A DNA stretch of 64,000 bases. Origin: an uncultured Pseudoruegeria sp. (GTDB taxonomy: Bacteria > Pseudomonadota > Alphaproteobacteria > Rhodobacterales > Rhodobacteraceae). The translations under genes and the position numbers were made by a program. The stretch covers positions 1 to 64,000 of the forward strand of contig CANMJD010000006.1 in assembly GCA_947498155.1 (NCBI GenBank), in the 5' to 3' direction. The notes beneath the pieces were generated by a model. That model was given only the letters and a program-made list of their open reading frames with translations. It was not told where the DNA came from and searched no databases. This document shows, one piece after another, positions 46,972 through 64,000 of this stretch (positions are counted from its first letter, which is position 1; every line of letters begins with the position of its first letter).

Positions 46972-47952
46972 TCAACACCAGGGCGTCAGGACGATTTTGG
47001 GGGTGGCCACCTCTGCATGGCGCAGGGCTTTAAAGGCCGCCGCCCCATCCGAAAGCGGGCGGGTCTCAAACCAGTCCAACGGCCCAAGCCGACCGGTAAA
47101 AATGGCCTCTGCGGTGTCGCGAAAATCCTGCGCGGTATACGTGTAGGTGCCGATAAATGTGATTTCTTGCAGGGTCATCCGGCGAATATCCAGACCGCCA
47201 TCATCTTCGCCTAGGCCAACATGGGCGATCACCCCTCCCGGTGCGACCAGACCCGACGCAGACCTGCGCGTAGCGGCGTAACCGACTGCATCAATCACCA
47301 AAGAAAATTCTCCCTCGGCAGAGGCAACAGCCCTTTGTCCACAGCGGTCGATCAGGAAATTCCGACGCCCGTCGTTGGGTTCCACCACGGTAATATCCTC
47401 AAGCCCCATAGCCCGCACTGCAAGGGCCGCCGCAAGGCCGATTGCCCCACCACCCAGCACCAATACACGGGTGTCTTTTGTGGGCTGCAAACGCGCCAGC
47501 GCCAGCCGCGCAGCGTGCCAGCTTACAGCCAACGGCTCTGCCAGAGCGGCCTTGGCCAAGGGCACCGCTTCGGGGACTGTGACCAGATTGGCTGCTGGCA
47601 TCGTGATATATTGCGCAAAAGCCCCCTCTCGCGGCGGCATTGAGATAATCTGGCGGGTAGCACAAAGATTTTCGCGTCCCGAGCGGCAGGCCGCACAGGT
47701 CCCGCAAGTGACCAGTGGGTTCACTGTCACCCGCTCCCCGTCGCGCGCACCGCCGACAATGACACCGGCGGCTTCATGGCCAAGGATAAGTGGTGCGGGG
47801 CGGCGGTCATCATGGCCGAGATAGGCGTGCATATCAGAGCCGCAAATGCCCACCGCTTCGACGCGGATCAGATGTGCATCCTGCGGCACCACGCAGTCCG
47901 GAACATCGCGGAAATTCAACTGCTCTACACCCTCATAAACAAGCGCCTTCAT
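46972..47952 (-). CDS. Zinc-dependent alcohol dehydrogenase (HpsO/HpsP-type role)
   Basis: 326 residues; medium-chain family. Catalytic zinc ligands are in GICGSD and ILGHEAAG (about 34-60), and structural zinc cysteines in CGTCAACRSGRENLC (about 82-96). The Rossmann glycines are VLGGGAIGLAAAL. In DHPS clusters, two accessory dehydrogenases interconvert the DHPS enantiomers by oxidising and reducing C2; this one and the SDR before it fit that pair. Starts as ATGA over the SDR stop. Confidence 0.78.
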   Translation of the reverse strand: MKALVYEGVEQLNFRDVPDCVVPQDAHLIRVEAVGICGSDMHAYLGHDDRRPAPLILGHEAAGVIVGGARDGERVTVNPLVTCGTCAACRSGRENLCATRQIISMPPREGAFAQYITMPAANLVTVPEAVPLAKAALAEPLAVSWHAARLALARLQPTKDTRVLVLGGGAIGLAAALAVRAMGLEDITVVEPNDGRRNFLIDRCGQRAVASAEGEFSLVIDAVGYAATRRSASGLVAPGGVIAHVGLGEDDGGLDIRRMTLQEITFIGTYTYTAQDFRDTAEAIFTGRLGPLDWFETRPLSDGAAAFKALRHAEVATPKIVLTPWC

Positions 47953-48713
47953 TTCGCAGTGAACCCCCCGTCGACCATCAGAGTTTGGCCGGTGACATAG
48001 CCCGAGGCCTCAGAGCATAAAAACAGGATTGGCCCGTCGATATCGGCCAGAATTCCGTTGCGCCCGATACAGGTCTGGGCAGCGTTTTTCTCTGCCAGTT
48101 GCGGGTCTTCAAAAACCGCTTGCGTCAATTCGGTTGGAAAAAAACCCGGCCCGATGGCATTGGCGGTAATCCCATGGGGTGACCATGCCTCGGCCATGGC
48201 GCGGGTCAATTGGCCGATACCTGCCTTTGTCGCGCCATAGGCAATGCCGCCGGGAAAGGCGCGGGTGGTTTGCAAGCTGGCGAAATTCACAATCCGCCCC
48301 CAGCCCTTTTGCCGCATCGCAGGCACCAAGGCCTGACTGAGGAAAAACGGGGCCGAAAGGTTCAGTGCCAGGGTTTGGTCCCACCCCGCCTCGGTCACCT
48401 CATCGGCTTTCTGCCGCGTGTTGACGCCAGCGGCATGAATAAGAATGTCCGGCGGCCCGAAAGGCGCCGCAATGGCCGCACAGGTCGCGCCAAGGGTTTG
48501 CCGGTCGGCAATATCGGCGACGACAAACGCGCCGCTGGCCGCACCAAGTTCTGCCATCAGGCTTTGCAATGCCGCTTCGCGCCTTGCGACCCCGACAACA
48601 GACGCCCCCGCCGCCGCCAAAGTCAGGGCGGCCCGCCGCCCCAGCCCCGAGCTGGCACCGGTGACGCAGGCAACCTTGCCGGAGAGGTCAAAAAGGCGAC
48701 GCGGATCAGCCAT
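47949..48713 (-). CDS. Short-chain dehydrogenase (HpsO/HpsP-type role)
   Basis: 254 residues from ATG 48713, overlapping the HpsN-like stop by eight bases; the longer open frame lacks a site. The NAD(P) motif TGASSGLGRR (about 17) and the catalytic YGATK with the upstream Ser (NFASLQTTRA) are intact. It probably oxidises the secondary alcohol of the non-preferred DHPS enantiomer. The exact chemistry is inferred from neighbours. Confidence 0.8.
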   Translation of the reverse strand: MADPRRLFDLSGKVACVTGASSGLGRRAALTLAAAGASVVGVARREAALQSLMAELGAASGAFVVADIADRQTLGATCAAIAAPFGPPDILIHAAGVNTRQKADEVTEAGWDQTLALNLSAPFFLSQALVPAMRQKGWGRIVNFASLQTTRAFPGGIAYGATKAGIGQLTRAMAEAWSPHGITANAIGPGFFPTELTQAVFEDPQLAEKNAAQTCIGRNGILADIDGPILFLCSEASGYVTGQTLMVDGGFTAK

Positions 48714-50013
48714 CGGCGGAAAGATCAAAGGTTTCGTCCGGAAAATATTTTGCCAAACGGACATCAGCGGCCCGGGCGTGGCCTTCCATGCCCTCAAGTC
48801 GGGAAATCCGCGCAGTTGCCTCAGCCACGGATTTGGAGCCTTCGCGCGTTGCTTTCTGCCAGGTGACAATCTTCATATACTTGTGAACACTCAGCCCACC
48901 GGTATAGCTTGCCGCGCCGGAGGTCGGCAGCACATGGTTGGTGCCGGTGGCTTTGTCGCCGTAGGACACCGTGGTTTCTTCGCCCAGAAACAGCGAGCCA
49001 TAGCAGGTCAGCCGCGCAAGCCACCAGTCCAGATCCCGCGCCTGAACTGTCAGGTGCTCGGGTGCATAATCATCCGAGCACGCCGCCATTGCTTCGCGAT
49101 CCGCACACAGGATCACCTCTGCATAGTCGCGCCATGCGGCAAAGGCATTTTCGCGGTTCAGGTCGGGCAGATCGTCAATCAGGCCAGGCACCATTTCCAT
49201 TACACGCTCTGCCAAGACCCGATCATCCGTCACCAGCCAGACCGGCGAATTGTAGCCATGCTCGGCTTGACTAACCAGATCGGTGGCGACAACCAACGCA
49301 TCTGCCGTGCCATCTGCCAGAATAAGGCTGTCCGTCGGCCCTGCGATCATATCAATCCCGACACGCCCGAACAGGATACGCTTGGCTTCGGCGACAAACT
49401 GGTTGCCCGGTCCCACGAGGATGTTGGCCTTTGGCAGGCCGAACAGACCAAAGGTCATCGCCGCAACGCCCTGAACCCCACCCATCGCAAGGATCTTATC
49501 CGCCCCGCAAATATGCGCAGCATAGACAATCGCCGGTGCCACCCCGATGTCGGGCCGCGGGGGCGAACAGGCTGTAATATGTCCGCACCCTGCGACCTTT
49601 GCCGTTGTCACCGTCATGATGGCGCTGGCGATATGGCTATAGCGCCCGCCGGGCACATAACATCCGGCGGCATCTACCGGAATGACCTTTTGGCCCGCTG
49701 TAAACCCGGGCACGATCTCCATTTCGACATCCGAGACGGTGGATTTCTGAATTTCGGCAAAACGCCTCACGTTCTCATGGGCAAAGCGGATATCGGCCTT
49801 GAGTTTCTCGGGCACGCGGGCGCAGGCGGCTTCGATCTCTGCGGGGGTCATCAAGACGTTGCCCTCGTATTTGTCGAATTTGGCCGCGTATTCCATCGCC
49901 TTGGCATCACCGCCTTGCTCAATATCGTTCAGGATGTCCTGCACGATCTGATGCGTTTTAGATGCGTCGGATTTCGCGGTGAGCGTGGCTTTTTTCAGGT
50001 ATTCACGGGTCAT
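48706..50013 (-). CDS. hpsN: Sulfopropanediol 3-dehydrogenase (HpsN), histidinol-dehydrogenase family
   Basis: 435 residues from ATG 50013, with AGGAAA upstream. The family signature is visible in GPGNQFVAEAKRILFGRVGIDMIAGPTDSLILAD (key residues G-P-G-N and A-G-P-T), plus EHLTVQ and the C-terminal HVLPTSGAASYTGGLSVHKY. HpsN oxidises (R)-2,3-dihydroxypropanesulfonate at C3 to sulfolactate with NAD. No his genes are near, and the TRAP and ComDE genes on either side argue against histidine synthesis. Confidence 0.87.
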   Translation of the reverse strand: MTREYLKKATLTAKSDASKTHQIVQDILNDIEQGGDAKAMEYAAKFDKYEGNVLMTPAEIEAACARVPEKLKADIRFAHENVRRFAEIQKSTVSDVEMEIVPGFTAGQKVIPVDAAGCYVPGGRYSHIASAIMTVTTAKVAGCGHITACSPPRPDIGVAPAIVYAAHICGADKILAMGGVQGVAAMTFGLFGLPKANILVGPGNQFVAEAKRILFGRVGIDMIAGPTDSLILADGTADALVVATDLVSQAEHGYNSPVWLVTDDRVLAERVMEMVPGLIDDLPDLNRENAFAAWRDYAEVILCADREAMAACSDDYAPEHLTVQARDLDWWLARLTCYGSLFLGEETTVSYGDKATGTNHVLPTSGAASYTGGLSVHKYMKIVTWQKATREGSKSVAEATARISRLEGMEGHARAADVRLAKYFPDETFDLSADG

Positions 50014-50026
50014 GGCAGAGGATTTC

Positions 50027-51352
50027 CTACTTGTAGATATCGGGCAGCAGTGTGGTGGAAATTGCAGGCACATAGGCAATCAGCAGAACCACGATAAACA
50101 TGCAAAGGACAAAGGGGATCGCACGGGCGGCGATTTTCAGAATGCTTTCGCCAGTGATGCCGGAGACCACGAAAAGGTTCAATCCCAAGGGCGGTGTAAT
50201 AAAACCAACCCCCAGCGCGGTGATCATCATGATACAGAACTGAATTTCATTCATCCCGATGTTATCGGCCAGCGGTTTCAGGATCGGTGCAAGGATCACG
50301 ATATTCGGCGTGGTCTCCATTACACAGCCTGCCGCAATCAAAATACCAATCATCAAAAGGATCAAAATCCACGGCTCGTCCGTCAATGACGTGACCGAAG
50401 TCACAAACCCCTGCGGGACCCCCATAATGGCAAGCGCTTCGGCCAGTGGCGCAGAAAAGGCGATAATCGGCAGGATCACCCCGTTGACCTTGGCAGAGCT
50501 GACCAACATCGCCGGAAAATCCGCCAGCGACAGGGTGCGCAGGATAAACCCCATTGCGATGGTGACGACCACGGCCGTTGCACCGGCTTCTGTCGGGGTC
50601 AGACGGCCAGAGAAAATCCCGTAAAAGATGATGCCGGGTACGATAAACGCATACCACCCGGATTTCAGCGCACGCCCGAGATTGCCAAGCCACTCGCCCG
50701 CCGTCATCGCGCCGCCACCTTCGTAATTATAGATACGATTGACGATCAGATTGGTAATCAGAATAGAGATCAGGATTGCCAGACCGGGGATCAGGGCCGC
50801 CAGAAACAGGGTGGAGGCCGAAATCCCCAGCACAAGCCCGATGATGATATAGGCAATCGAAGGTGGGATCAGGATGCCCGTGCAGGCCCCCGCCGCCACC
50901 AGCGCACAGGCATAGGGGCGCGGATAGCCGCTTTCGACCAACCGGTCGATGGTCATCCGGCCCACAGCCGCCGCCCCTGCCGCATCCGATCCTGAAATAG
51001 CCGCGAACATCCCGCACACCAATACAGTCGCGGAGCCAAAGCCGCCTTTGGCAAAACAGGTCAGCGCTTCGGCCACATCAAGGAATTTTCGCGACAGGCC
51101 GGTTCGGACCAAGACGTCACCGGTCAGAATAAACAGCGGCACCGCCGTCAGGGCAAAAGCGTCAATGCCGGCAAACAGGCTTTCGCCGACAAGGCTCAGC
51201 GGCAGATCGCCGGACATATACAGCATGGTAATCGCCGCCACGCCAATCGCCGCCCAGACCGGTACGGCCAGCGCGATCAGCGCAACAAAAAGAATGACGG
51301 GAAGGTAAAAATCCCACCCTAGTTCGACCGTCTGGTTCACCGTGTTCCAAAG
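50027..51352 (-). CDS. TRAP transporter large membrane subunit (DctM)
   Basis: 441 residues from ATG 51352. About twelve to thirteen membrane helices. DctM patterns such as IPLFILTGDVLVRTGLSRKF-type sequence (key P-L-F and G) and LVAAGACTGILIPPS are visible. It carries the substrate, with sodium, from the DctP-bound form into the cell. Adjacent HpsN-like gene points to DHPS or a related C3 sulfonate as the substrate. Gaps are 13 bases on each side. Confidence 0.9.
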   Translation of the reverse strand, partial: LWNTVNQTVELGWDFYLPVILFVALIALAVPVWAAIGVAAITMLYMSGDLPLSLVGESLFAGIDAFALTAVPLFILTGDVLVRTGLSRKFLDVAEALTCFAKGGFGSATVLVCGMFAAISGSDAAGAAAVGRMTIDRLVESGYPRPYACALVAAGACTGILIPPSIAYIIIGLVLGISASTLFLAALIPGLAILISILITNLIVNRIYNYEGGGAMTAGEWLGNLGRALKSGWYAFIVPGIIFYGIFSGRLTPTEAGATAVVVTIAMGFILRTLSLADFPAMLVSSAKVNGVILPIIAFSAPLAEALAIMGVPQGFVTSVTSLTDEPWILILLMIGILIAAGCVMETTPNIVILAPILKPLADNIGMNEIQFCIMMITALGVGFITPPLGLNLFVVSGITGESILKIAARAIPFVLCMFIVVLLIAYVPAISTTLLPDIYK

Positions 51353-51365
51353 CATGTCGGCCCCC

Positions 51366-51878
51366 TCAATCGAACAGTTTATCGCCCTCAAAGACGGGCT
51401 TGCCATCGATGAGAGATTTGAAATCGCGGCGGAAAGACTGGATCAGCCGCACGATCATCAGCCCAAACCCAAGGGGCACAGCCATCAGGAAAAAGACTTT
51501 CGAGATCCGCAGACCGTCGGTCACCGATCCGAATTTTGCCGAGACATGGACCGTTTCATAGGACCAGTAGAGCGCGATCACCGCCACAAACAGCATCACC
51601 GCATCGCCGAAAATGTATAAAACGGCCTTCGCGCGGGGGCTGAGATAGTGCATCACCACGTCAATGCGGATGTGGGCGCGTTCTTTGACCGCCGCAGCAG
51701 CCCCGATCCACGCGAGGTAGATGAAAGAATAGCGAACAATTTCCTCACCCCAGATGGACGAATAGGAAAATACTTCCCGCCGCAGCACCTCGATCGCCAT
51801 GGTCGCGACGAGCATCACGTAAAACACCAGCAACAGCCAGCGCTCCGCGTCCCGATTGATCCTGTGAAGTAGTCCCAT
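51366..51878 (-). CDS. TRAP transporter small membrane subunit (DctQ)
   Basis: 170 residues from ATG 51878, with GGAG eight bases upstream; the longer frame is unsupported. Four membrane helices (about 15-35, 48-66, 87-107, 128-150). SSIWGEEIVRYSFIYLAWIGAA is the DctQ signature (E-E and W-x-G-A residues). It stabilises the large subunit. The periplasmic binding-protein gene ends 111 bases upstream. Confidence 0.88.
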   Translation of the reverse strand: MGLLHRINRDAERWLLLVFYVMLVATMAIEVLRREVFSYSSIWGEEIVRYSFIYLAWIGAAAAVKERAHIRIDVVMHYLSPRAKAVLYIFGDAVMLFVAVIALYWSYETVHVSAKFGSVTDGLRISKVFFLMAVPLGFGLMIVRLIQSFRRDFKSLIDGKPVFEGDKLFD

Positions 51879-51989
51879 CCCATCCGCTCCGTTTTTGGCA
51901 CCTGATGACAGACCGGCCCCTGTGGACGGCAGGCAAAGGTGCAATGCAAGGAGAGGCCGGACGCCCGCTCAAGGCGTCCGACCCGATTT

Positions 51990-53138
51990 TTAAGCGTCGT
52001 GGACGTAGTATTTCCCTTGGGTGCCCGCTGCTTCTTCAAGTTTGGCAAAGGCATCCATGGAACCGGCAAGATCTTTTTTGAACGTATCCCATTCTGCACG
52101 TTGATAGCCGCCGGCCTCTTTCCATTCGCCAAGTTGATCTTCGCTCAGGCTGTGGAATTCAACACCGGCCTTGGCCAGTTCGGCCATGGCATAGGACCGT
52201 GCCGAAGGTACTTTGGAGAGGTTTTGATGTGCGGTCATTTCAGAACCCCACATGATCCCTTCCTGAACATCCGCAGGCATCGAATTGAACCACTCAAGGT
52301 TACAGGAATAGACCTGACTATCTGGCACCGCCTGCGTAAAGGTCACATGGCTCAGGATATCTTTGAAGCCAAAGACATAGAGCGCGCCAACGGACGGATC
52401 GAGCGCATCCGCAACCCCCTGTTTGATCGCAGAGGGCGTTTCGCCCCAAGCCACTGGCGTCGGGTTGGCCCCGACCATGCGATAATATTGCTGAAGCATC
52501 TTGGAGCCCGGCACGCGGAATTTCACGCCAGACAGATCACCCGGAGACAGAACAGCCCCCGCGCCACCCTTGCGCACCGCAACAACACGCGGATCGATAT
52601 TGACGTAGAATAGCGCCTTGAACCCTGCGGCCTCGACTTTGGGATGAACCTCGGCGTTCCAGTGATCGGAATTCACCAGATTGGTAAACCGCTGATTGGA
52701 CCCGCACAAATAAGGCATGTTGATCAAATCAACCGTCGATGCAAAGGGGGCAAAGTTGGACAGGGAATGCTGTGCGGCCTGAATTGTACCGCCCTGAACT
52801 TTTTGAACCAAAGCCCCGCCTGCACCCAACTGGCCGCCGGGGGCAAGCTTAACATAGACTTTGCCATTGGTGGCGTTCTGGATGTTTTCCTTTAGATCCA
52901 GCTGCATGATCGGATAGCTACGCGACGCGCCCAGAACATAGGCCGTTGCTAGGGTCATGATATGATCCGCAGCTTTTTCACGGTCCCGCTCTTCATTAGC
53001 GGTTTGTGCCGTGGCCTCTGTCGACCATAACATTCCGCTGGCCCCCACCACCATCGCAGCAGTAAAGGCGCCGCCGGTGGTGAGCTTTAGAAAATTCCGG
53101 CGTGCCGCCGAAGCGAGTGCGCGTTTTTCGGTATCCAT
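51990..53138 (-). CDS. TRAP transporter periplasmic binding protein (DctP), Tat-type signal
   Basis: 382 residues. The leader carries RRNFLK (about 13-18) and a hydrophobic core ending at ATA/QT (about residue 45), so export by the Tat pathway is likely. The DctP fold follows: ALVQKVQGGTIQAAQHSLSNFAPF (about 105-130) and the conserved Arg in VKFRVPGSKMLQQYYRMVGA that binds the ligand acid group (here probably a sulfonate). First large gene of the catabolic operon. Confidence 0.88.
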   Translation of the reverse strand: MDTEKRALASAARRNFLKLTTGGAFTAAMVVGASGMLWSTEATAQTANEERDREKAADHIMTLATAYVLGASRSYPIMQLDLKENIQNATNGKVYVKLAPGGQLGAGGALVQKVQGGTIQAAQHSLSNFAPFASTVDLINMPYLCGSNQRFTNLVNSDHWNAEVHPKVEAAGFKALFYVNIDPRVVAVRKGGAGAVLSPGDLSGVKFRVPGSKMLQQYYRMVGANPTPVAWGETPSAIKQGVADALDPSVGALYVFGFKDILSHVTFTQAVPDSQVYSCNLEWFNSMPADVQEGIMWGSEMTAHQNLSKVPSARSYAMAELAKAGVEFHSLSEDQLGEWKEAGGYQRAEWDTFKKDLAGSMDAFAKLEEAAGTQGKYYVHDA

Positions 53139-53516: not shown

Positions 53517-54539
53517 ATGGCTGACGCTGATACACCTCCTACGTTGGACGATGTTGCCCACTACGCCGGTGTGTCCACTGCGACGGTTTCGCGTTTCATC
53601 AACAAATCCGGCAAGGTCAGCAAACGCACACAAGTGCGCGTCGAAGAGGCGATCAATACGCTGGGATATACACCCAATTTCGCGGCACGCTTTATGGCGG
53701 CTAAACGCACCTTTACGATTGGCGCTATCATTCCGACGATGGAAAACGCCATCTTTGCCCGTGGCTTGCAGGCCTTCCAAGAGGCCCTGAACGACCATGG
53801 CTACACCCTGCTGGTTTCCAGCTCTGCCTACAAACCGCAAGCCGAAGAAGAGCAAATCAGGACACTGGTGGCGCGCGGCGCCGACGGGCTTTTGCTGATC
53901 GGTCACGACCGCAAACCGGAAATCTACGATTATCTGGACCGCCAGCAGGTGCCGGTTCTGGTTGCTTGGTCCTATGATGAAACTGCGCGGGCCCCCTCTG
54001 TCGGTTTTGATAATAAAACCGCCATGCAGGCCCTTGCCGAACGGGTATTATCAATGGGGCATCGCCATATCGGTATGATTTCAGGCATCAGCGAAGGCAA
54101 TGATCGGGCGCGCAGACGGATCGAGGGGGTGCGCGCGGCGTTGCAGGGCTTTGGGTTGGATCCGGCAACCTTATCGCCTCTGGAAGTACCGTATAATATT
54201 TCCGACGGCGATCTTGCCCTAGAGACCCTGATGTCGCGCCCTACGCCCCCCAGCGTTGTGTTGTGCGGTAATGATGTTCTGGCGGCAGGGGCCTTACGCG
54301 GGGCAAAACGACTGGGGCTCGACGTCCCACGCGATGTTTCTATCACCGGCTTTGACGACATCGAACTTGCGCAAGTGGTCAGTCCCGCTTTGACCACGGT
54401 GCATGTCCCGCATCGCGAAATGGGCCGCCGCGCCGCAGAGGAGTTGATCGCCATGGTGCAGGAGAAACGCGCGGGTATCTCCTTTAAGTTAGAAACAACC
54501 CTCGTGGATCGCGGGTCAGTGGCGCGGCGTGACGGATGA
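53517..54539 (+). CDS. LacI-family transcription regulator of the sulfonate operon
   Basis: 340 residues. Helix-turn-helix TLDDVAHYAGVSTATVSRF (about 8-27) and the hinge helix are followed by a periplasmic-binding-protein-like effector domain (about 60-335). Divergent from the TRAP/hps operon, with two operators between them, it very likely represses that operon until DHPS or a metabolite binds. It overlaps the PfkB gene by four bases, so regulator and kinase are made together. Confidence 0.9.
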   Translation: MADADTPPTLDDVAHYAGVSTATVSRFINKSGKVSKRTQVRVEEAINTLGYTPNFAARFMAAKRTFTIGAIIPTMENAIFARGLQAFQEALNDHGYTLLVSSSAYKPQAEEEQIRTLVARGADGLLLIGHDRKPEIYDYLDRQQVPVLVAWSYDETARAPSVGFDNKTAMQALAERVLSMGHRHIGMISGISEGNDRARRRIEGVRAALQGFGLDPATLSPLEVPYNISDGDLALETLMSRPTPPSVVLCGNDVLAAGALRGAKRLGLDVPRDVSITGFDDIELAQVVSPALTTVHVPHREMGRRAAEELIAMVQEKRAGISFKLETTLVDRGSVARRDG

Positions 54540-55483
54540 CGCCCTCCAAAGACACGCCCATCCAGAACATAGGGGCGTACGCCCTGCACGCCGCAGAAGT
54601 TCTGGTGCTGGGAGCCGCAAGCTGGAACAGAATTGTTCAGGTGCCAAAACTGCCCCAAGGGACGTCGGCCACACTTTTTGAGGCACGGGAATATGAAACC
54701 GTCGGCTCGACCGGTGTCGGAAAATCGATGGCCCTTTCCGCGCTTGGACATGCGCCGGTGCTGCACTGTGCCCTTGGGATCGATCACTATGCAGAGAATA
54801 TCGCAGAAGCCTGTCGCGCCCGGGGCATCGCGCTAATCATTGATCCCCAAAATGCGCCGACGCCGCATCATCTGAACATTATGGATACGGCGGGGGGGCG
54901 ATATTCTTTGTTTTTGTCAAATGGCGCAGATGATCCGGAAATTGATTGCGACCGCCTATTGCCAATAATCAGCGCGGCCCGAACGATTTTTCTAAGCCTC
55001 GCCCTGTCTTCGCTGAAAGCACTGCCGCTCTTGCAGGAAACCACGGCCGACATCTGGCTCGACCTGCATGACTATGACGGACAAAACCCGTGGTATGATG
55101 ATTTCATTGCCCATGGAGATGTGATCCAGCTATCGGATGTGGCGCTGGAACAGCCCGAAGCGGTTGTGAGCCGGCTTCTGACCGGTCGCGCCCGGATGGT
55201 TGTGCTGACTAAGGCCGAAAAAGGGGCTGAAATCTATACAGAAGGGGAAAACCTGACAATCCCACCCTGCCCGGCCCGGTTTTGCGACAGCAATGGGGCG
55301 GGGGATGCTTTTTCAGTAGGGCTTTGGCACGGGCTGCAGACCGGTATGCCCTTGCGCGATGCGGGTGCGTTTGCGGCGGCAACAGCCGCCTGCGCCGTTG
55401 AATCCCTCGCCTTGTTTCCGGCCCAGACAACCGTTGAAGATATTGCCGCGCGTGTAGCGCAAAATCGCACCAATGCGCCCTAG
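54536..55483 (+). CDS. PfkB-family carbohydrate kinase
   Basis: 315 residues. The catalytic motif is DSNGAGDAFSVGL (about 248-260), and the N-terminal glycine-rich substrate loop is TVGSTGVGKSMALSALG (about 55-71). It phosphorylates a small sugar or sugar-like substrate. Translational coupling to the LacI regulator and proximity to the sulfonate genes suggest a substrate connected with that metabolism; kinases of the sulfoquinovose pathway belong to this family, but their partner genes are absent here, so this stays a possibility only. Confidence 0.78.
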   Translation: MTPSKDTPIQNIGAYALHAAEVLVLGAASWNRIVQVPKLPQGTSATLFEAREYETVGSTGVGKSMALSALGHAPVLHCALGIDHYAENIAEACRARGIALIIDPQNAPTPHHLNIMDTAGGRYSLFLSNGADDPEIDCDRLLPIISAARTIFLSLALSSLKALPLLQETTADIWLDLHDYDGQNPWYDDFIAHGDVIQLSDVALEQPEAVVSRLLTGRARMVVLTKAEKGAEIYTEGENLTIPPCPARFCDSNGAGDAFSVGLWHGLQTGMPLRDAGAFAAATAACAVESLALFPAQTTVEDIAARVAQNRTNAP

Positions 55484-55524: not shown

Positions 55525-57360
55525 TCAGGCCACACGGATCGGTTTATCGGGCACCAGATCCAGCCGGATCACCCGCTCCAGATCTTCGCCCTTCTCGTCA
55601 ATCAGAATGCTGAGCATCGATTCCAGGGTGAAATAGGCGCGCAGAACGCGAAAAATCAGATACTCCGGCAGCGCCAGAATGCCTTTGGGCACCCCGTTCA
55701 ATAGCGATGCGGCAACGGCCATGATCGCAGGTGCGCCCGTCGTCACCGCAATGATGGATTGCCATAGGATCGGGCTGTCGGGGTTGAACCGCAACCCCCA
55801 TTCCAATGTCCCATAGATGATCAGCGGTACCAACATCGCCCGCCGCGCCGAGTTGATCAGCATATAGGGCAGAATGACCTTACCGCGCAGGGTTTTATTC
55901 GGCCCGTAAATCAGATCGCGGCAGCGCGAAGAGATATGATAGATTGAGCGAAACCACCGCATGCGCTGTTCGCGCATATGGCTATAAGACGACGGCACTT
56001 CCGAGATGTAGCGGATTTTCGGATCGACCACTGAATGAAAACCCAGCTCTCCGATGCGCAGGGAAATATCGGTGTCTTCGCCATTCATCCCTTCGACAAA
56101 CCCGCCCAGATAGCGCGGGTGATGGGTCCGGTAGACAACAAACATACCGGGGATGCCGACAACCCCGTTCACCGCCCCCATGGCCACCGAGTAAAACCCG
56201 TGTTTGACCAACACCTCCAGCAGGCGCGCACGGTCAAACAGCGCCCCCCCCGGCGGCACCGGCACCCCGCCCACGACGCCAACATCGGGATTGGTAAAAT
56301 AGGGCATGGCGCGTTTGAAGTTGTCCTCGCCAACCAGCGTATCGGCATCCACGCGTACCAGAAATTCGGTCTCGCAGGCATCCAACCCCGCATTCAGCGC
56401 ATTGGATTTGCCCGGTTTGGGCACATTGATCACGCGTCCCTTGGCGGCTTTACAGGCGGCAAGGGTGTCGCGGGCGATCTCTTCGGTGTCATCGGTAGAG
56501 TTGTTGTTCATGATCAGAATATGCACCTCGCCCCCATAAGCAACGGCAGCCCGATCCATGGCGTTGATCGTATCCTTGATGATGTAGCTTTCATTATGTG
56601 CTGGTACGATGACAGAGACAGGCGGGGTGAAAGCAGGTGTTTTGGCCGTCAGCACGTCATAGATCGCCAGCAGATATAACTGGCCAAACAGCACCGGCAA
56701 AAACAAAAAGACTCCCGGACCGATACCCCCCAGCAAAGTCCATTGTCGCATGACGGCGACAGTCTTCAACTCCATTCCGCCGACCCAAACGGCAATGATT
56801 GCGGCAACCGCGATGGTTACGCCAAGGCGCAAAATAGCACGCATCTGGCTAACCGGAATATGTTCGATCCGGATGCGGGCCGGCATATGGCCGCGCTCCA
56901 GCAATTTGAACGAATACACCGCAAAGCCGAATAAACCCGAGGCAATGGCACTGAAATGCAGGGAAAACGACACCCCCAGCACCCGATGGGCAAAGGCATT
57001 GGCCAGATCAAATGCCGTACAGCCCAGTAAAAACGTCAGCGTCATATCCATACCAAAAAGGCTCCGGTTCCGCGCCTCTCCGTTGCTAAAGGCAGCAAAA
57101 GAGACAAAGAAGGAGATCAGGAAAATCCGGATCGAAATCGCATGCCGGCCTTCGTGGGGTGAAAAAACGTAATCACGGTTCGGAAAAATCTGGGTGGCGG
57201 CATCACTGTTGATCCCCCAGAGCTGCACCACAGCCAAGGTGGTAAACAACAGCAGCATCTTTGGCGCCTGCCAGTCAGATACCGCCCCGGCAAAGCGCTT
57301 TGGCGCACTGTCGACCGAGATGTAGTTGATCTGCTCGCGTTTATCCTCTGCTTCACTCAT
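55525..57360 (-). CDS. Membrane glycosyltransferase, cellulose-synthase-like (GT2)
   Basis: 611 residues. Helices at about 34-52, 75-92, 103-125, 135-152, 178-195 and 205-240 precede a GT2 catalytic domain (about 246-475): NNNSTDDT (285-292), DAD (338-340), GED (427-429) and QRMRW (465-469), the set of processive beta-glycan synthases. C-terminal helices follow. No PilZ domain, so no direct cyclic-di-GMP control. It overlaps the BcsB-like gene as ATGA and is in one operon with a UDP-sulfoquinovose synthase-like gene. Confidence 0.87.
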   Translation of the reverse strand: MSEAEDKREQINYISVDSAPKRFAGAVSDWQAPKMLLLFTTLAVVQLWGINSDAATQIFPNRDYVFSPHEGRHAISIRIFLISFFVSFAAFSNGEARNRSLFGMDMTLTFLLGCTAFDLANAFAHRVLGVSFSLHFSAIASGLFGFAVYSFKLLERGHMPARIRIEHIPVSQMRAILRLGVTIAVAAIIAVWVGGMELKTVAVMRQWTLLGGIGPGVFLFLPVLFGQLYLLAIYDVLTAKTPAFTPPVSVIVPAHNESYIIKDTINAMDRAAVAYGGEVHILIMNNNSTDDTEEIARDTLAACKAAKGRVINVPKPGKSNALNAGLDACETEFLVRVDADTLVGEDNFKRAMPYFTNPDVGVVGGVPVPPGGALFDRARLLEVLVKHGFYSVAMGAVNGVVGIPGMFVVYRTHHPRYLGGFVEGMNGEDTDISLRIGELGFHSVVDPKIRYISEVPSSYSHMREQRMRWFRSIYHISSRCRDLIYGPNKTLRGKVILPYMLINSARRAMLVPLIIYGTLEWGLRFNPDSPILWQSIIAVTTGAPAIMAVAASLLNGVPKGILALPEYLIFRVLRAYFTLESMLSILIDEKGEDLERVIRLDLVPDKPIRVA

Positions 57361-58922
57361 GTCGACACCCCGGAAATGTCCATCCCCGCAGGCACCACAA
57401 GCAGCGCAACACCGGTGCGCGGCAACGTTGCTTGCCCGCGCAGGTCCTGCACCGTTAGCTCGCGGGTGCCCGCCGCCATCGTTACCAACCAGATACTGTC
57501 GTCAGTGGGCAGGCTGAGTGGTACATCCTGCGCCGCGATAACAATAATCTGTGCTTTTGCAGCCGACGGCTTCAGGTCAGCGTGGTGCGGCACGATCTGG
57601 GAAAGCAGTGCCGCTGCCATCTGCGCCTCTGCCGCCGTCAAAGCAGAGGTTGCGCCCAAGTGAAGCGAACCAAGATCAGAGAGGGCGGCGCGCAATTTGG
57701 TCAGGCTATCCCCATAGGTGGCCTCTCCCGCAATCAACCGGCTGCCGGGGGAGAGTTCCGCCACACGTTCCGGCCCCCTGTCGCAAGGCCCGTCGCGTTC
57801 GTGGGGCGCGGAAAGGGCAATTTCGAGCAGGTTCTTTGCTGATTGCATCTCGGCCGGTAGCGCGATCTTGGTAAGATAGGCATTGTCTGACCCCGAGATC
57901 ATGTCTTGATGGATCAAACGATTGTTCAGAGTGACGATCAGCGACCAGTGTTGCGATGCCCGCAGACGCCCCAACTGAAGATCGATATATGCCGCCTCTG
58001 CAATCGGCATGGAGTCTGCGCCGCGCAAATCAAACCGCGAGCGCCAGATGGTTTTGTGGTGAAAACGCCTGACCCCCCCATTCGCGCCATTGACCGCCAA
58101 AGCGTCTGTTAAGTCAGCGCCGCCCGTCGCCTCTGTCGGGGCCGGAAAAAAACCAATCCCTTCGCGCATCTGATCCGTGCTCAACGCATCCACGGCCTGA
58201 CCACCGACAAACACTGGCTGGATGCCGCGCTGCGCAAATTGGGTGGCAAGAGCCAGCCGTCGCAGTTGCTCTTGTGGCTTGACCCACGCAGGCCAGGCCA
58301 CCCGCACCATATCGCCCCAGGCATGGATACGATCGGCGGCAGACTGCAGCGGCAAGTCCAGCGTCAGAAAAATAGCGCTGGTCGTCTCAATCTCTACAAC
58401 GGCTTTGACACCTTCGTCGGAGCTGCATTGAGAGTGCGAACCCTCCCCTTGCAGAGAAAATGAGACGACCAGTTGGTCTCTTGCGAAATCCGTCGGTGAC
58501 AGCGGAATTTGCAAGGACCGCCCGACCTCGCCCGGACGCAGCAAAATTTCGCCACGGCGGATGTTGTCGATAGAGATGCGCAGCACCCCTTCGACTCCAT
58601 CAAGCACCTGAAATGTTGCATCAATTTGGAGGTATCCAGACGTAGGGCGTGCATCAAGAGGGATCTTATATGCAACGCTCTGATAGGCGGGGAGACCGGA
58701 AAGAATGACCGGATTATTCGGATTGGCGCGGTGAACCACGGCCTGATACGCACCGGAGGCGGACACGGCGGTCCGCTCTTCAAAGACCAGTTGCGGGCCT
58801 TGGGTCATTTCGCTGACATAACGTTGTCCTTTTTCCAGAATATCCATTGTCGAAAGCAGGAGGGCCACGCCTGCAAGGAGAAATCCCAACAGCCCAATGC
58901 CGATCATTCGCATTTCATTCAC
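57357..58922 (-). CDS. BcsB-like periplasmic protein
   Basis: 521 residues. One N-terminal membrane anchor (about 6-25) and a large periplasmic part with beta-rich carbohydrate-binding-like modules. GPCDRGPERVAELSPGSRL (about 374-392) resembles the conserved segment of BcsB, with a possible disulphide (Cys376 with an earlier Cys near 168). BcsB normally has a C-terminal membrane helix; this protein ends without one and is shorter than the usual 700-800 residues. It would guide a growing glycan from the synthase through the periplasm. Confidence 0.72.
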   Translation of the reverse strand: MNEMRMIGIGLLGFLLAGVALLLSTMDILEKGQRYVSEMTQGPQLVFEERTAVSASGAYQAVVHRANPNNPVILSGLPAYQSVAYKIPLDARPTSGYLQIDATFQVLDGVEGVLRISIDNIRRGEILLRPGEVGRSLQIPLSPTDFARDQLVVSFSLQGEGSHSQCSSDEGVKAVVEIETTSAIFLTLDLPLQSAADRIHAWGDMVRVAWPAWVKPQEQLRRLALATQFAQRGIQPVFVGGQAVDALSTDQMREGIGFFPAPTEATGGADLTDALAVNGANGGVRRFHHKTIWRSRFDLRGADSMPIAEAAYIDLQLGRLRASQHWSLIVTLNNRLIHQDMISGSDNAYLTKIALPAEMQSAKNLLEIALSAPHERDGPCDRGPERVAELSPGSRLIAGEATYGDSLTKLRAALSDLGSLHLGATSALTAAEAQMAAALLSQIVPHHADLKPSAAKAQIIVIAAQDVPLSLPTDDSIWLVTMAAGTRELTVQDLRGQATLPRTGVALLVVPAGMDISGVST

Positions 58923-58998
58923 CGATTGTTAAAAGCACTCCACAGAATGATGCCGCCCCCACCTCCAAGCGGGGTCGGCATCTATTTCTGTGTTGTGG

Positions 58999-60219
58999 TT
59001 ACGCGACCTGCTGGCCGTCTATTTGAACAACACCCGGACGCTGGTTGTCTGTCCATGTGGACACACAGGGAATCATGTTATGCAGGCAGCGATAGGCGTA
59101 TTTCCCTGCAATTTCCTGTGTTTCTTCCATCAGACCTTCGGCCAGCGTGACCGGTTTCAGACCAAGAGAAATAAAGGTCTTATTAGACACGCGCAGATCA
59201 TTTTCGGCAGCCTCGTTGCGCGGATTGTCGACATTGGCAACTTCCGCGCCAGAGGTCTCGGCGACCAGTTTAGCCAAGGACCGCACCGTATGGGTTTCGG
59301 TCATCTGGTTCAGGATCGCCACTTTGCCATCCCGAACGGGGGGGTTTGCCACAGCCAGCGCAAGGCATTTCACCGTATCCTGAATATGAATAAAGGCGCG
59401 GGTCTGACCGCCGGTGCCATGCACCGTCAGCGGATGGCCCACCACCGCCTGCATCAGGAAACGGTTCAGCACGGTGCCATAATCGCCATCATAGTCAAAC
59501 CGGTTGATCAGCCGTTCATCCAGCTTGGTTTCATCGGTCTGCGTGCCCCAAACGATTCCTTGGTGCAGGTCGGTGACGCGCAGGCGGTCGTTTTTGGCAT
59601 AGAATTGGAACAGCAGTTGATCCATGGATTTTGTCATGTGATAGACACTGCCCGGATTGGTCGGATACAGAATATCGCGCTGATAGATCTTGTTGTTGTC
59701 GCCCGGGATATAGACCGGCAAATAGCCTTCGGGGATTTCGATGCCATCATCGTCATAGCCGTAAACGCCCATGGTCCCGAGGTGAACAAAATGCACATCC
59801 AGATCCAATGCGACAGAGGCCGCAAGCAGGTTGTGGGTGCCAGAGATGTTGTTGTCGACGGTATAGCGTTTTTCGGAGACGCCCTTCATTGAATAGGGTG
59901 CGGCACGCTGCTCGCCAAAGTGGATAATCGTGTCGGGGCGCAGCTTTGCCATGATCTCGGTCAGGCGGTCATATTCACGGGCGACGTCGATTTTCTCAAA
60001 GTTGATGGTCAGGCCGGTTTTTTCTTTCCAAGCGGCTTGGCGATCTTCCATGGATGCGATGGGTGTCAGGCTGTCGGCCCCCATTTGCGTATCAATATCG
60101 CGGCGGGACATGTTGTCGAGAATGGTAATTTTATGGCCCAGTTTCGACAGGTGCAGCGCTGTAGGCCAACCGCAAAATCCGTCGCCACCGACAATGATAA
60201 TTTCTTGAACATGTGTCAT
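58999..60219 (-). CDS. sqdB: UDP-sulfoquinovose synthase-like epimerase (SqdB/SQD1 family)
   Basis: 406 residues. Extended SDR with VGGDGFCGWPTALHLSK at the N-terminus (NAD loop, 10-26) and family-specific segments HFGEQRAAPYSM (100-111), LGTMGVYG (147-154), TDLHQGIVWGTQTDET (216-231) and GHPLTVHGTGGQTRAF (261-276). The catalytic Thr149, Tyr193 and Lys197 (YHMTK) are in place. These match UDP-sulfoquinovose synthase, which makes UDP-6-sulfoquinovose from UDP-glucose and sulfite, not ordinary epimerases. It is the first gene of a three-gene operon with a BcsB-like protein and a GT2 synthase. No SqdC/SqdD genes for sulfolipid are adjacent. Confidence 0.86.
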   Translation of the reverse strand: MTHVQEIIIVGGDGFCGWPTALHLSKLGHKITILDNMSRRDIDTQMGADSLTPIASMEDRQAAWKEKTGLTINFEKIDVAREYDRLTEIMAKLRPDTIIHFGEQRAAPYSMKGVSEKRYTVDNNISGTHNLLAASVALDLDVHFVHLGTMGVYGYDDDGIEIPEGYLPVYIPGDNNKIYQRDILYPTNPGSVYHMTKSMDQLLFQFYAKNDRLRVTDLHQGIVWGTQTDETKLDERLINRFDYDGDYGTVLNRFLMQAVVGHPLTVHGTGGQTRAFIHIQDTVKCLALAVANPPVRDGKVAILNQMTETHTVRSLAKLVAETSGAEVANVDNPRNEAAENDLRVSNKTFISLGLKPVTLAEGLMEETQEIAGKYAYRCLHNMIPCVSTWTDNQRPGVVQIDGQQVA

Positions 60220-60395: not shown

Positions 60396-62927
60396 TCACC
60401 CAAGTTTCGCATCAAATCCTTGGCGGGATTCGATTGCACACAACTTTAATGCGACAAGCTGATTCTCAATATCAACCACCCCTCCGGCCCGGGCTTGCTC
60501 TTCCAGCTCTGCCAGTAGGCCCTCAAGCGCCGCCTGCCCCAAAAGCGCTGCCGCGCCTTTCATTTTATGCGTGGCCTCCGCCAGCCCAACCGGATCATCC
60601 CTAAATATATCTTCGTCGATCTGCTCGATATAGGCCGCTAGTTCGGCAAAAAAGCTTGCCCCGACGTTTTTCACCTTATCGCGCCCTAAAGCCTCGACCA
60701 GCACATCCAGAGAGTCGTTTTCCAGTGCAGGATCAGTGCCTTCCGTTGCGGCTTGCCGCTCCGCTGATAAAACCTGCGACAGGATGCCTTGCAATCGTGT
60801 GAGCCGGATGGGCTTGGTATGAAAAAAGCTCATGCCCGCAGCATAGGCAGCGTCACGATATTCGTCTTTGCCATGGGCGGTCAGGCCGACAATCGGCGTG
60901 GCCGCATTAAGGCCTCCCTCGCGTCGCAGCCTTTTGCTTGCTTCGATCCCGTCCATCACCGGCATGCTGATATCCATAAAGATCAGATCGAACCGGGTCT
61001 GCGCAGCCTTAACAAGGCATTCCGCCCCGTTAACCGCCTCATGGACCTCATGGCCCATGCTGTGCAGCATATCGGTCAGGACCTTGCGGTTCACGTCGTT
61101 ATCTTCAACCAAAAGCACCCGACTGGCGTGGCGAGCCGCACCGGTAGCGGCATCGGTCGGGTCGGATTGCGCCGCCGTCATTTCTCCGCGTTGCAGCGGC
61201 AGCGTCAGGGTAAAGCTCGAGCCTTGGCCCACGGTACTGTGGAGCGAAATATCGCCCCCCATACCCTGTGCAATCTTGCGCGAAATCGACAGACCCAATC
61301 CATCCCCGCGCGACTGGCGCCCCTTGCCGCTGGCCAGCGCGACAAAGTCGTCAAACACCTGTTCTTGATGTTCGGGTGCAATGCCGGCACCGGTGTCGGT
61401 CACGGTAAAAGACACCGATGAAACCGCTTGCCCGTGAATGCCCGCCACCGTCAGTGCAATATGGCCGGTGTCGGTAAATTTAATCGCATTCCCCAGCAGA
61501 TTGGTCAAAATCTGCCGGATGCGATTGCTATCGCCTATAAACCCCCTGCGCATAGAAGCATCGATCTGCAATACCATCCCTAAGTTCTTTTCACGCGCCA
61601 AGGGTTCCAGCGTCTCAACAAGAGGCTCAACCATTTCCGGAAGGTAAAAATCCTGCGGGGCCAGTTGCAATGAGCCGGTCTCAATGCGGGTGATGTCCAG
61701 CGCTTCGTTGGTATGTTCCAGCAGGATTTCGCCAGACGCGGTGGCCATTTGCACATAGCGTTCCTGCTGTTGCGTGAGCGCGGTAGTTTTCAACAAGTCC
61801 AGCACCCCCAAAATCCCATTAAGCGGCGTACGCATTTCATGGCTCATCATCCGCAGGAATTGCGATTTCGCCTGATCGGTGCGTTCGGCGCGGTTGCGGG
61901 CATCTATCAGTTTTTGCTCGTTGATCTTGCGCCCGCTGATGTCCCGAATGTAGGCAATAAAGGTCGTGCCCTGTTCATCCTGGGTCGAGGTAATGTTCAA
62001 TTCGACAGGAAATTCTTCACCAGATTTACGCAAGGCCGAAAGCTCCACCCGTCCCTTGTCGATGACCCGTGTTGTCCTTGTCTGCAGATAGCGGGTCATA
62101 CCGGTGTGATGGGCCTCTCGCATCTGTGGGGGAATGATGGTTTCCTCCATGGTTTTGCCGATGATTTCTTCCGGTGCCCATCCAAAGATCGACTGGGCCG
62201 ATGCATTAAAAGCGATGATCCGCCCTGCATCATCGGCGGTTATGATCGCATCCAGTGACGCCGCCACAGTTGACGCCAGCTGTTTGGAAGAGGTCAGCAG
62301 CTTTGCATCGCGCAGCGCTGCACGACGCAACAGGCGGTCCAGCACGATCAACAAGCCCACAAGCAACACCATAAGCGCAATAGCGATCCCGCCGGTGCGG
62401 GCTAACTGCGCGGCAAATTCTGCCCGACCCTTTTCAGTGTGTTCGGCCCCCAAGGTGACCCCGAGCAAGGCAATCTTGCGCACCACGGGGCGGATCTCCT
62501 GCACCCTGCGCCGCAGATCATCCAGATCAGCCGGTGTAAAAGCGCTGTCCTGATCCAGATAGGCAATGACGGTATCAGAAAAATCATTCATTTGCTTGAT
62601 CAGGGGAAGGGCATCGGCATTTTTGGCAAATGCGGTGCCGGTTCGGCCATAGTTGATGATGTTCAGACGGCTAAGGGCAATATCAAACCGCAACCTGATT
62701 TGGGCATCGCTCAGCGCGCCTTCGAGCAGTTGATCAGAGAGGGTCGCATTCAGATTGGCGAACTCTGTATCCAGTTGGGCAATGCTCCATTGGGTGTCAT
62801 CGCCCTCGGCAATCGATAGGTCAGAAAGCTGTGACAGAAGGTTGCTCACCATCAGCCCCAACAACAAAACAAGCAGGCCAAAGCCTGCCAGTATTGCGAT
62901 ACGATATCTATTAAGCGCAGACGTCAT
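60396..62927 (-). CDS. Membrane hybrid sensor kinase with receiver and Hpt domains
   Basis: 843 residues. Membrane helices at about 11-30 and 180-200 enclose a helical periplasmic sensor region. A PAS domain (about 220-340), dimerisation domain with MMSHEMRTPLNG (His near 361), ATPase domain (LLGNAIKF, DTGAGIAPE, GDGLGLSISRK), a receiver (phospho-Asp near 649, in FMDISMPVMDG) and a C-terminal Hpt domain (ATHKMKGAAALLG, His near 786) follow. It is a complete phosphorelay in one protein. The secreted protein gene lies 42 bases upstream in the same direction; the likely output is the divergent regulator at 63619. Confidence 0.9.
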   Translation of the reverse strand: MTSALNRYRIAILAGFGLLVLLLGLMVSNLLSQLSDLSIAEGDDTQWSIAQLDTEFANLNATLSDQLLEGALSDAQIRLRFDIALSRLNIINYGRTGTAFAKNADALPLIKQMNDFSDTVIAYLDQDSAFTPADLDDLRRRVQEIRPVVRKIALLGVTLGAEHTEKGRAEFAAQLARTGGIAIALMVLLVGLLIVLDRLLRRAALRDAKLLTSSKQLASTVAASLDAIITADDAGRIIAFNASAQSIFGWAPEEIIGKTMEETIIPPQMREAHHTGMTRYLQTRTTRVIDKGRVELSALRKSGEEFPVELNITSTQDEQGTTFIAYIRDISGRKINEQKLIDARNRAERTDQAKSQFLRMMSHEMRTPLNGILGVLDLLKTTALTQQQERYVQMATASGEILLEHTNEALDITRIETGSLQLAPQDFYLPEMVEPLVETLEPLAREKNLGMVLQIDASMRRGFIGDSNRIRQILTNLLGNAIKFTDTGHIALTVAGIHGQAVSSVSFTVTDTGAGIAPEHQEQVFDDFVALASGKGRQSRGDGLGLSISRKIAQGMGGDISLHSTVGQGSSFTLTLPLQRGEMTAAQSDPTDAATGAARHASRVLLVEDNDVNRKVLTDMLHSMGHEVHEAVNGAECLVKAAQTRFDLIFMDISMPVMDGIEASKRLRREGGLNAATPIVGLTAHGKDEYRDAAYAAGMSFFHTKPIRLTRLQGILSQVLSAERQAATEGTDPALENDSLDVLVEALGRDKVKNVGASFFAELAAYIEQIDEDIFRDDPVGLAEATHKMKGAAALLGQAALEGLLAELEEQARAGGVVDIENQLVALKLCAIESRQGFDAKLG

Positions 62928-62969: not shown

Positions 62970-63461
62970 TTACTCCAAGACTTTCAACCGGTTCAACTGC
63001 CAGATGCTGCGCGAATAATTGGTTTCCGTGTTGTATTTTTCGTCCCTGTCAAACGGGTAGATCACCCAAAACGGGCCCTTATTGCGCACAGACATGGTTT
63101 CGCCATCCATACGAGAGGCCACAATCGGCGCATCATCTTGCAGATCGGCAATCGGCATCGACACGGCATAATCATTTAAGGCAACCATTTCGATCGTTTT
63201 GCCCTCAATGCCAAGATGCGTCAGCAAGGCCTTAAGCGGGACCCCCGAAAACCGGGTTTCGCCATCGGTCCAAATGGTGCCGGTCACAAACTCCACCTGC
63301 TCCAGCGCATCAAGGGCGGCCAAATCCAGCACCACGGGCTGCGCCGCCAGCGGGCTTATGGTCAAGGTCATCACGTCGGCCTGCGCCGCCGTGTGCTGGG
63401 CAGAAAAAGTGAACAGCGCCATTACAACCGCAAACAGACGGCTACGGGAAAGATACATCAT
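62970..63461 (-). CDS. Secreted molybdopterin-oxidoreductase-like domain protein
   Basis: 163 residues from ATG 63461 (or 63458), with AGAGGA upstream. A signal peptide ends near AQA/DV (about residue 28). The mature domain has the pattern of the sulfite-oxidase-type cofactor-binding fold (FSGVPLKALLTHLGI, MVALNDYAVSMPIADLQDD, FWVIYPFDRD), but it is short and shows no cofactor-binding Cys, so it may sense rather than catalyse. Translated with the sensor kinase and probably its periplasmic partner. Confidence 0.72.
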   Translation of the reverse strand: MMYLSRSRLFAVVMALFTFSAQHTAAQADVMTLTISPLAAQPVVLDLAALDALEQVEFVTGTIWTDGETRFSGVPLKALLTHLGIEGKTIEMVALNDYAVSMPIADLQDDAPIVASRMDGETMSVRNKGPFWVIYPFDRDEKYNTETNYSRSIWQLNRLKVLE

Positions 63462-63539
63462 CGTCAGGATCCTCTTGCTAATCTGGCCTTTGACTACGCT
63501 ATTGTGGGGAACCTGTTTTGAGGCATTGGCATAGAAACC

Positions 63540-63555
63540 TATACTTAAGAGTATA
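63540..63555. promoter_or_regulatory. Inverted repeat in the kinase/regulator divergent promoter
   Basis: TATACT-TAAG-AGTATA, perfect 6-base arms, 78 bases upstream of the secreted-protein start and 63 upstream of the response-regulator start. A candidate site for the response regulator itself. Confidence 0.4.
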
Positions 63556-63618
63556 TATGCCACGATAAGATCATATTTCCCGATATATAAGGGATGAAAC
63601 ATCAAGGAATAAGAGTCG

Positions 63619-64000
63619 ATGCCGAACATTCTTTTAGCAGATGATCACGATTTGGTCCGCGATACCATTGCTGCTTATTTGGAAACCAAAGACGACTTCA
63701 AAGTTCTGACCGCCCCCAGTTTTGACACCGCGATGGAGGTCATGCGCGGGCTTGATGTGATTGATCTTCTCATTCTGGATTACAACATGCCGGGGATGAA
63801 CGGGCTTGAGGGGTTGGAAAAAGCGCGCAAAACTTTTCCGGCCTGCAAAGTCGCCTTGATGTCCGGTGTGGCCAATCGCGATATTGCCAACACCGCCATG
63901 GCGCGCGGCGCCCATGGCTTTATTCCTAAATCGCTGACGGCGGCGTCTTTGGTTAATGCGATACAATTTGTGCTGTCCGGGGAACGCTATTTCCCGTTTG
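63619..64000 (+). CDS. Response regulator, N-terminal part (runs off the window)
   Basis: 127 codons are present, from ATG 63619 with AAGGA upstream; no stop is reached. The receiver domain is complete: acidic pair ADDHD (8-11), phospho-Asp54 in LILDYNMPGMNG, and the conserved Lys near 105 in GFIPKS. The sequence type is that of NarL/FixJ regulators, so a LuxR helix-turn-helix probably follows outside the window. Divergent from the sensor kinase unit and probably its partner. Confidence 0.85.
   Translation, partial: MPNILLADDHDLVRDTIAAYLETKDDFKVLTAPSFDTAMEVMRGLDVIDLLILDYNMPGMNGLEGLEKARKTFPACKVALMSGVANRDIANTAMARGAHGFIPKSLTAASLVNAIQFVLSGERYFPF

Follow-up and report, generated by a model that had tools for sequence, protein, structure and literature searches.

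A candidate operon for a sulfoquinovose-containing exopolysaccharide, with sqdB coupled to a cellulose-synthase-like gene pair, in an uncultured Pseudoruegeria

What is a UDP-sulfoquinovose synthase for when its gene is followed not by sulfolipid genes but by a pair resembling a cellulose synthase? Formation of sulfolipid in Rhodobacter is reported to need SqdA, SqdB, SqdC and SqdD (PMC11346425). The locus that raises the question lies in a stretch of 64,000 nucleotides from an uncultured Pseudoruegeria sp. (assembly GCA_947498155.1, contig CANMJD010000006.1, positions 1-64,000 of the forward strand), hereafter the window, and consists of three genes:

58999..60219, minus strand: sqdB, 406 amino acids, predicted UDP-sulfoquinovose synthase (UDP-glucose + sulfite to UDP-sulfoquinovose)
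57357..58922, minus strand: bcsB-like gene, 521 amino acids, predicted guide subunit of the periplasm, attached to the membrane by a single N-terminal anchor
55525..57360, minus strand: GT2 gene (glycosyltransferase family 2), 611 amino acids, membrane glycosyltransferase, predicted processive synthase for a sulfoquinovose-containing glycan

The gap between sqdB and the bcsB-like gene is 76 bases, and the stop of the bcsB-like gene overlaps the start of the GT2 gene as ATGA. An earlier reading of the window from its letters alone (the sequence-only reading) had described these three genes and this overlap, as we find them, and had supposed that the sugar may enter an exported sulfoquinovose-containing glycan. 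The conserved unit, together with the lack of SqdD and SqdC, supports that supposition, and we consider it probable that the unit is a dedicated system for the synthase-dependent secretion of a sulfoquinovose-containing exopolysaccharide. Sequence comparison and structure prediction show to which families the enzymes belong, which catalytic motifs they carry, how the genes are ordered and how far that order is conserved, and that the lipid partners are missing.

The first enzyme is closely related to known UDP-sulfoquinovose synthases. It matches Arabidopsis SQD1 (1i24) with an E-value of 2.8e-93 over residues 3-386 and is 60% identical to SqdB of Sinorhizobium meliloti, whose sqdB is followed by a gene for an SqdD-like glycosyltransferase. 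A fingerprint given for the UDP-sulfoquinovose synthases SQD1, SqdB and Agl3, [ST]MGxnYx3K (PMC8987622, Table 1), is present as T149-M150-G151 and Y193-x3-K197 (TMGVYG and YHMTK), which together with the SQD1 match bears out the family motifs seen from sequence. On the NCBIfam model NF041015 the protein scores 332.6 bits, below the curated cut-off of 575; S. meliloti SqdB (332.1) and another SqdB encoded beside SqdD (336.5) score equally low, and the cut-off is therefore uninformative for alphaproteobacterial SqdB. From its sequence, the window enzyme is predicted to be a UDP-sulfoquinovose synthase that forms its product from UDP-glucose and sulfite.

One position invites a different reading of this enzyme. 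In the archaeal enzyme Agl3, Glu147 is reported to support dehydration, and Agl3 without sulfite is reported to yield the 5,6-ene (PMC4388408). The corresponding residue of the window SqdB is valine, so the homologue might make another UDP-sugar, either UDP-glucose-5,6-ene or a different sulfonated sugar, which would then be polymerised. However, valine also stands here in all 23 aligned SqdB sequences linked to SqdD, that of S. meliloti included, and it is therefore a lineage trait; inactivation of SqdB by a change from Glu to Val is rejected on the same observation. In Rhodobacter sphaeroides, moreover, the sqdB gene of the sqdBDC operon is described as required for sulfolipid (PMC11346425; that sequence was not compared). 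We regard a different UDP-sugar as very improbable.

The GT2 protein carries the motifs DAD (338-340), GED (427-429) and QRMRW (465-469), and D338, A339, D340, G427, E428, D429, Q465, R466, R468 and W469 are invariant in an alignment of 19 rows. All three motifs occur in 50 of the 56 proteins of its cluster, the six exceptions being one protein broken to 274 amino acids (L038) and five other, shorter proteins that were pulled in. Helices flank the glycosyltransferase domain on both sides, so that the motifs and the membrane segments of a processive synthase are both present. Five Pfam glycosyltransferase families, PF13641 among them, match the 611-residue protein. As in BcsA-BcsB, a membrane GT2 with DxD, ED and QxxRW adjoins the gene for a partner of BcsB fold, and the fold matches extend over 316-360 residues for BcsA and 362-405 for BcsB. 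Unlike BcsA, the window protein has no Pfam match to the PilZ (cyclic-di-GMP-binding) domain, has at least five hydrophobic segments N-terminal of the glycosyltransferase domain and only just reaches BcsA in sequence, at E-values of about 1e-4 to 1e-3; unlike BcsA-BcsB, the pair is coupled to an sqdB gene. Its AlphaFold2 model has a mean predicted local distance difference test score (pLDDT) of 85.0 and a predicted TM-score (pTM) of 0.86. By VIA-align this model matches Escherichia coli BcsA with Z 22.0 and a root-mean-square deviation (rmsd) of 2.8 over 318 residues, and Xenopus hyaluronan synthase with Z 21.8 and rmsd 4.7 over 374 residues, the matches to hyaluronan and cellulose synthases taking in part of the membrane region. 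Hyaluronan synthases, which it resembles in having a single GT2 domain in a membrane protein (matches of up to 374 residues, Z about 20-22), differ in that the window GT2 has a BcsB-like partner and a donor predicted to be UDP-sulfoquinovose.

The partner protein reaches 23.2 bits on PF03170 (BcsB), a weak match against a cut-off of 21, and its predicted fold is that of BcsB. For the AlphaFold2 model (pLDDT 79.5, pTM 0.65) the first Foldseek match is BcsB (E-value 1.8e-19, TM-score 0.43), VIA-align gives Z 12.2 and rmsd 7.9 over 405 residues, and BcsB fills the nine top VIA-align rows, in one case as a BcsB-BcsC fusion. BcsB has a C-terminal membrane anchor next to BcsA. Unlike it, the BcsB-like protein has a single hydrophobic segment, N-terminal at residues 6-24, and no C-terminal membrane segment, an arrangement seen in 12 of the 13 rows examined.

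Based on these assignments we propose a mechanism, in which the identity of the donor, the processive and export activities, and the make-up and linkage of the polymer are inferred. SqdB would form UDP-sulfoquinovose in the cytoplasm from UDP-glucose and sulfite; the GT2 protein would add sulfoquinovose to a growing chain, either alone or alternating with another sugar, as in the two-donor hyaluronan synthase, and would thread that chain through its own membrane channel; and the BcsB-like protein, with its anchor in the inner membrane, would guide it across the periplasm. The machine would thus be a variant of synthase-dependent secretion, and it is the product that would be new. That UDP-sulfoquinovose can serve a synthase as donor is shown by the Class II hyaluronan synthase of Pasteurella, which is reported to add sulfoquinovose at chain ends (PMC11673988). 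Arg336, two residues before the DxD, is invariant in the 19-row alignment and kept in a Rhodococcus GT2 described below; as a guess, it is a candidate to hold the sulfonate. A bolder version, in which we place rather less trust and which falls somewhat short of even chances, is that the product is a homopolymer of sulfoquinovose with a C-S sulfonate on every residue, forming an anionic matrix or capsule in marine Roseobacter-group bacteria and at least one actinobacterium.

The sqdBDC operon of Rhodobacter and Sinorhizobium shares the first enzyme with the window unit and differs in what follows, since SqdD (GT8-like) and SqdC (epimerase-like) are replaced here by the BcsB-like and GT2 proteins. 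An alignment-based search of the window genome found no match to SqdD (all 10 candidates scored); an earlier single-sequence search for SqdD was also empty and had no control. No protein of the genome matches SqdC at the level of SqdC itself, the best score of 56 bits belonging to other short-chain dehydrogenase/reductase (SDR) proteins (34 of 34 candidates scored), while SqdC scores at least 265 bits in the family genomes that have it. Those are 26 of 149, and SqdD occurs in the identical 26. With SqdD and SqdC unmatched, the known sulfolipid route is incomplete in the window genome (SqdA and the cyanobacterial-type SqdX were not searched for). The sequence-only reading had suggested looking for a second sqdB beside sqdD and sqdC: there is no second copy, the genome having one sqdB, and the two partners are unmatched as well. 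Because these lipid partners are missing, being the sole sqdB does not count against a polysaccharide.

We examined how far the unit is conserved in a scan of genome contigs, which gave 505 SqdB relatives, of which the best 80 loci were kept, and in an even sample of 149 family genomes and samples of 385 class and 299 phylum genomes. In 52 of the 80 loci a GT2 gene lies downstream of sqdB on the same strand, with a bcsB-like gene between them in 47; 21 loci have SqdD and SqdC, and seven have neither set (L060, L061, L062, L063, L072, L073 and L084). Such conservation excludes a chance arrangement, and the neighbourhood survey that had been suggested from sequence thus reveals a conserved sqdB/bcsB-like/GT2 unit, a Rhodococcus plasmid included. 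Among the seven, a BcsB-like gene follows sqdB in L073 (hhalign 99.2%), and a glycosyltransferase gene does so in L072. The GT2 family occurs in seven of the 149 family genomes, each time with sqdB within 1.8 kb. In two of these (G038 and G073) the two genes are convergent, the order being porin-like, bcsB-like, GT2 and then sqdB on the opposite strand, and the link therefore survives rearrangement. The next GT2 proteins in this sample score at most 158 bits against at least 885 for the family, which is thus sharply bounded there, as judged with a profile built from sqdB-linked rows and at most eight candidates per genome. In the class and phylum samples only the same three genomes match (3 or 4 candidates scored per genome), which gives no sign of a broader distribution in Pseudomonadota; in two class genomes, G170 and G391, sqdB adjoins the GT2 gene, and the unit is also found in other alphaproteobacterial families. 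The family sample holds 40 copies of sqdB in 37 genomes, of which 24 lie beside SqdD and nine elsewhere, two as second copies (G066 and G105) and seven as single ones (G003, G080, G099, G101, G120, G134 and G146). SqdD is present without an sqdB match in G053 and far from sqdB in G080.

The same pairing bears on the idea that the genes merely share an operon, with SqdB feeding sulfolipid or another pathway elsewhere, for instance through a broad-specificity lipid glycosyltransferase, and the GT2/BcsB-like pair making an ordinary glucan. The donor of BcsA-BcsB is UDP-glucose, as such a glucan would ask for. A marine bacterium is reported to have a broad-specificity glycolipid transferase (PMC8231724). 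However, sqdB stands beside the GT2 gene in nine of nine genomes of the family and class samples, rearranged orders included, and again on the Rhodococcus plasmid; because the pairing is kept so strictly, mere sharing of an operon is implausible, and we hold this alternative to be quite unlikely. An operon for cellulose or a plain glucan is likewise unlikely, given the strict linkage to sqdB and the lack of PilZ.

A search of plasmids with the GT2 protein returned a single record, from Rhodococcus qingshengii, on which sqdB (60%), a BcsB-like gene (hhalign 99.1%) and a GT2 gene (37%) stand in a row. A gene for a SulP anion transporter lies three genes upstream from the first of them, and an alkyl sulfatase gene follows the last. 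This row, together with the rearranged orders in G038 and G073, points to a functional bond rather than an inherited neighbourhood. A Pseudonocardia plasmid with an SqdB of 43% identity was set aside: the annotated GT2-family gene beside its sqdB lies on the opposite strand and does not match the window GT2. When 102 SqdB rows were placed in a quick maximum-likelihood tree, the 23 linked to SqdD came out as a single clade with SH-aLRT 100, and all 62 GT2-linked rows, the window SqdB among them, fall outside it. Fifty-nine of these, with six rows from other contexts, make up one weakly supported group (88), and L101, L102 and Rhodococcus stand apart. Since resolution is poor at the deep forks and the program gives a warning about long branches, the tree does not fix the number of origins.

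Several observations, besides the valine in SqdB, weigh against secretion of such an exopolysaccharide. The top structural match of the GT2 model is the membrane mannosyltransferase PcManGT (Z 25.9, rmsd 3.5, 337 residues), the synthases share their level of Z with the fucosyltransferase WrtF and other GT2 enzymes, and they give low TM-scores in Foldseek (0.33-0.44 by query length, top 20 rows); the fold is therefore insufficient to establish processivity. For the Pasteurella enzyme UDP-sulfoquinovose is reported as merely a chain terminator, after which growth stops (PMC11673988). No BcsB-like gene was seen in five of the 52 GT2 loci, and G170 has a porin-type cassette with no BcsB-like match. 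No outer-membrane exporter was found among the neighbours scanned in the window, and at L101 the porin-like gene lacks a Pfam match of its own, though it matches the L054-type porin at 49%. Finally, rows linked to sqdB served to build the GT2 profile, and the best 3 to 8 candidates were scored per genome.

Some of these points would suit a sulfolipid operon, in which the GT2 protein, in place of SqdD and SqdC, puts sulfoquinovose on diacylglycerol or another lipid and the BcsB-like protein is an accessory. The PcManGT match and the loci lacking a BcsB-like gene are consistent with this, sqdB is classically a sulfolipid gene, and the window SqdB is close to SqdD-linked SqdB. Nevertheless, BcsB-like partners and the QRMRW-type motif belong to polymer synthases; one genome, G025, the only one with both systems, retains an sqdB copy next to each partner set, two in all; and in some relatives the unit comes with porin-like and RTX genes. 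We consider a lipid acceptor unlikely. An ordinary sulfolipid operon is not our first choice, since the genome lacks SqdD and SqdC and the SqdB proteins linked to GT2 do not fall within the clade of those linked to SqdD. Overall, secretion of a sulfoquinovose-containing exopolysaccharide remains the reading that we favor.

The accompanying genes fit an exported matrix, and RTX-type proteins would suit an anionic one. Some relatives have a porin-like gene within the cassette, and in all five GT2 loci without a BcsB-like gene it lies 120-218 bases upstream of sqdB. An RTX-type protein is encoded directly after GT2 (within 150 bases, same strand) in seven of the 80 loci and in L097. The loci concerned are L015, L020, L021, L022, L024, L027, L029 and L097, with Pfam confirmation for L020 and L027, and in L022, L024, L027, L029 and L097 the RTX gene is followed by one for a protein with weak Sel1-repeat similarity. 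The variant cassette of porin-like gene, sqdB and GT2, with no BcsB-like gene found, is seen at L048, L050, L052, L053, L054 and L112. Other settings of sqdB were also encountered: near a Stf0 sulfotransferase in L098 and near multi-domain glycosyltransferases in L100 and L072, contexts that suggest sulfoquinovose in further surface glycans. L103, L104 and L105 hold divergent SqdB homologues (38-40%) with a plant-like TMGEYG motif; that of L104 scores 450 bits on NF041015 and is followed by a gene for a Polysacc_synt_2 protein, and L105 has a similar-looking neighbour, as judged by eye.

Upstream of sqdB, the window continues with three further genes:

60396..62927, minus strand: hybrid histidine kinase (PAS, HisKA, HATPase, receiver and Hpt domains by Pfam), a possible regulator, by association only
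62970..63629, minus strand: small Oxidored_molyb domain protein of molybdopterin fold (PF00174, 34.1 bits, cut-off 24), by association only
63619..64000, plus strand: start of a LuxR-type response regulator (PF00072 and PF00196), running past the window end (L092:8620-9237)

A kinase gene next to sqdB on its upstream side, accompanied in the locus by the molybdopterin-fold and LuxR-type genes, recurs in 25 of the 44 triad loci that have at least 3.5 kb of upstream sequence, and in all 25 the SqdB is at least 77% identical to that of the window. Control by phosphate was considered and rejected: a Pho-box-like pattern has six matches with up to three mismatches against 3.7 expected, none of them in the interval that precedes sqdB. 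Neither promoter nor terminator scans showed an excess over shuffled sequence. On the other side of the unit, window positions 47949-53138 (minus strand) encode a TRAP transporter, a second histidinol-dehydrogenase-family protein (the genome has three copies of this family) and an SDR protein, and divergent from them, at 53517-55483 (plus strand), lie genes for a LacI regulator and a PfkB kinase. Gene order here presumably resembles that of sulfopropanediol (DHPS) degradation clusters; if this likeness holds, breakdown of a sulfonate would adjoin synthesis of a sulfonate sugar.

In a 2026 review, the passages on its occurrence place sulfoquinovose in sulfolipid and in archaeal N-glycans, and describe synthesis and degradation as typically split between organisms, with Roseobacter among the degraders (PMC12890257). 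Sulfolobus biofilms are reported to carry it on glycoproteins (PMC9549778), and Agl3 of Sulfolobus, like the unit proposed here, provides UDP-sulfoquinovose for a surface glycan and not for a lipid (PMC4388408); it differs in serving protein N-glycosylation and no synthase-dependent polymer. Work on Shark Bay mats counts UDP-sulfoquinovose synthase as one of the sugar enzymes of extracellular polymers, with neither an operon nor a polymer in the passage concerned (PMC12555021). The sequence-only reading held that a sulfoquinovose glycan had not been described for these bacteria, and in agreement with it we found no bacterial polysaccharide with sulfoquinovose among the matches listed in open-licence literature, which leaves most subscription papers outside and is no proof of novelty.

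If our reading is true, heterotrophic marine bacteria also make sulfoquinovose, and make it as a polymer, and a sulfonate (C-S) polysaccharide joins the known sulfate (C-O-S) ones. The polymer would be a further source of the sulfoquinovose that marine bacteria eat. Use of sqdB as a sulfolipid gene in environmental data is mentioned in the literature (PMC4796936), and our reading would caution against taking sqdB alone in that sense. Should the product further prove to be a homopolymer, a sulfonated exopolysaccharide would occur in nature, and organic sulfonate in the sea would have a pool other than sulfolipid.

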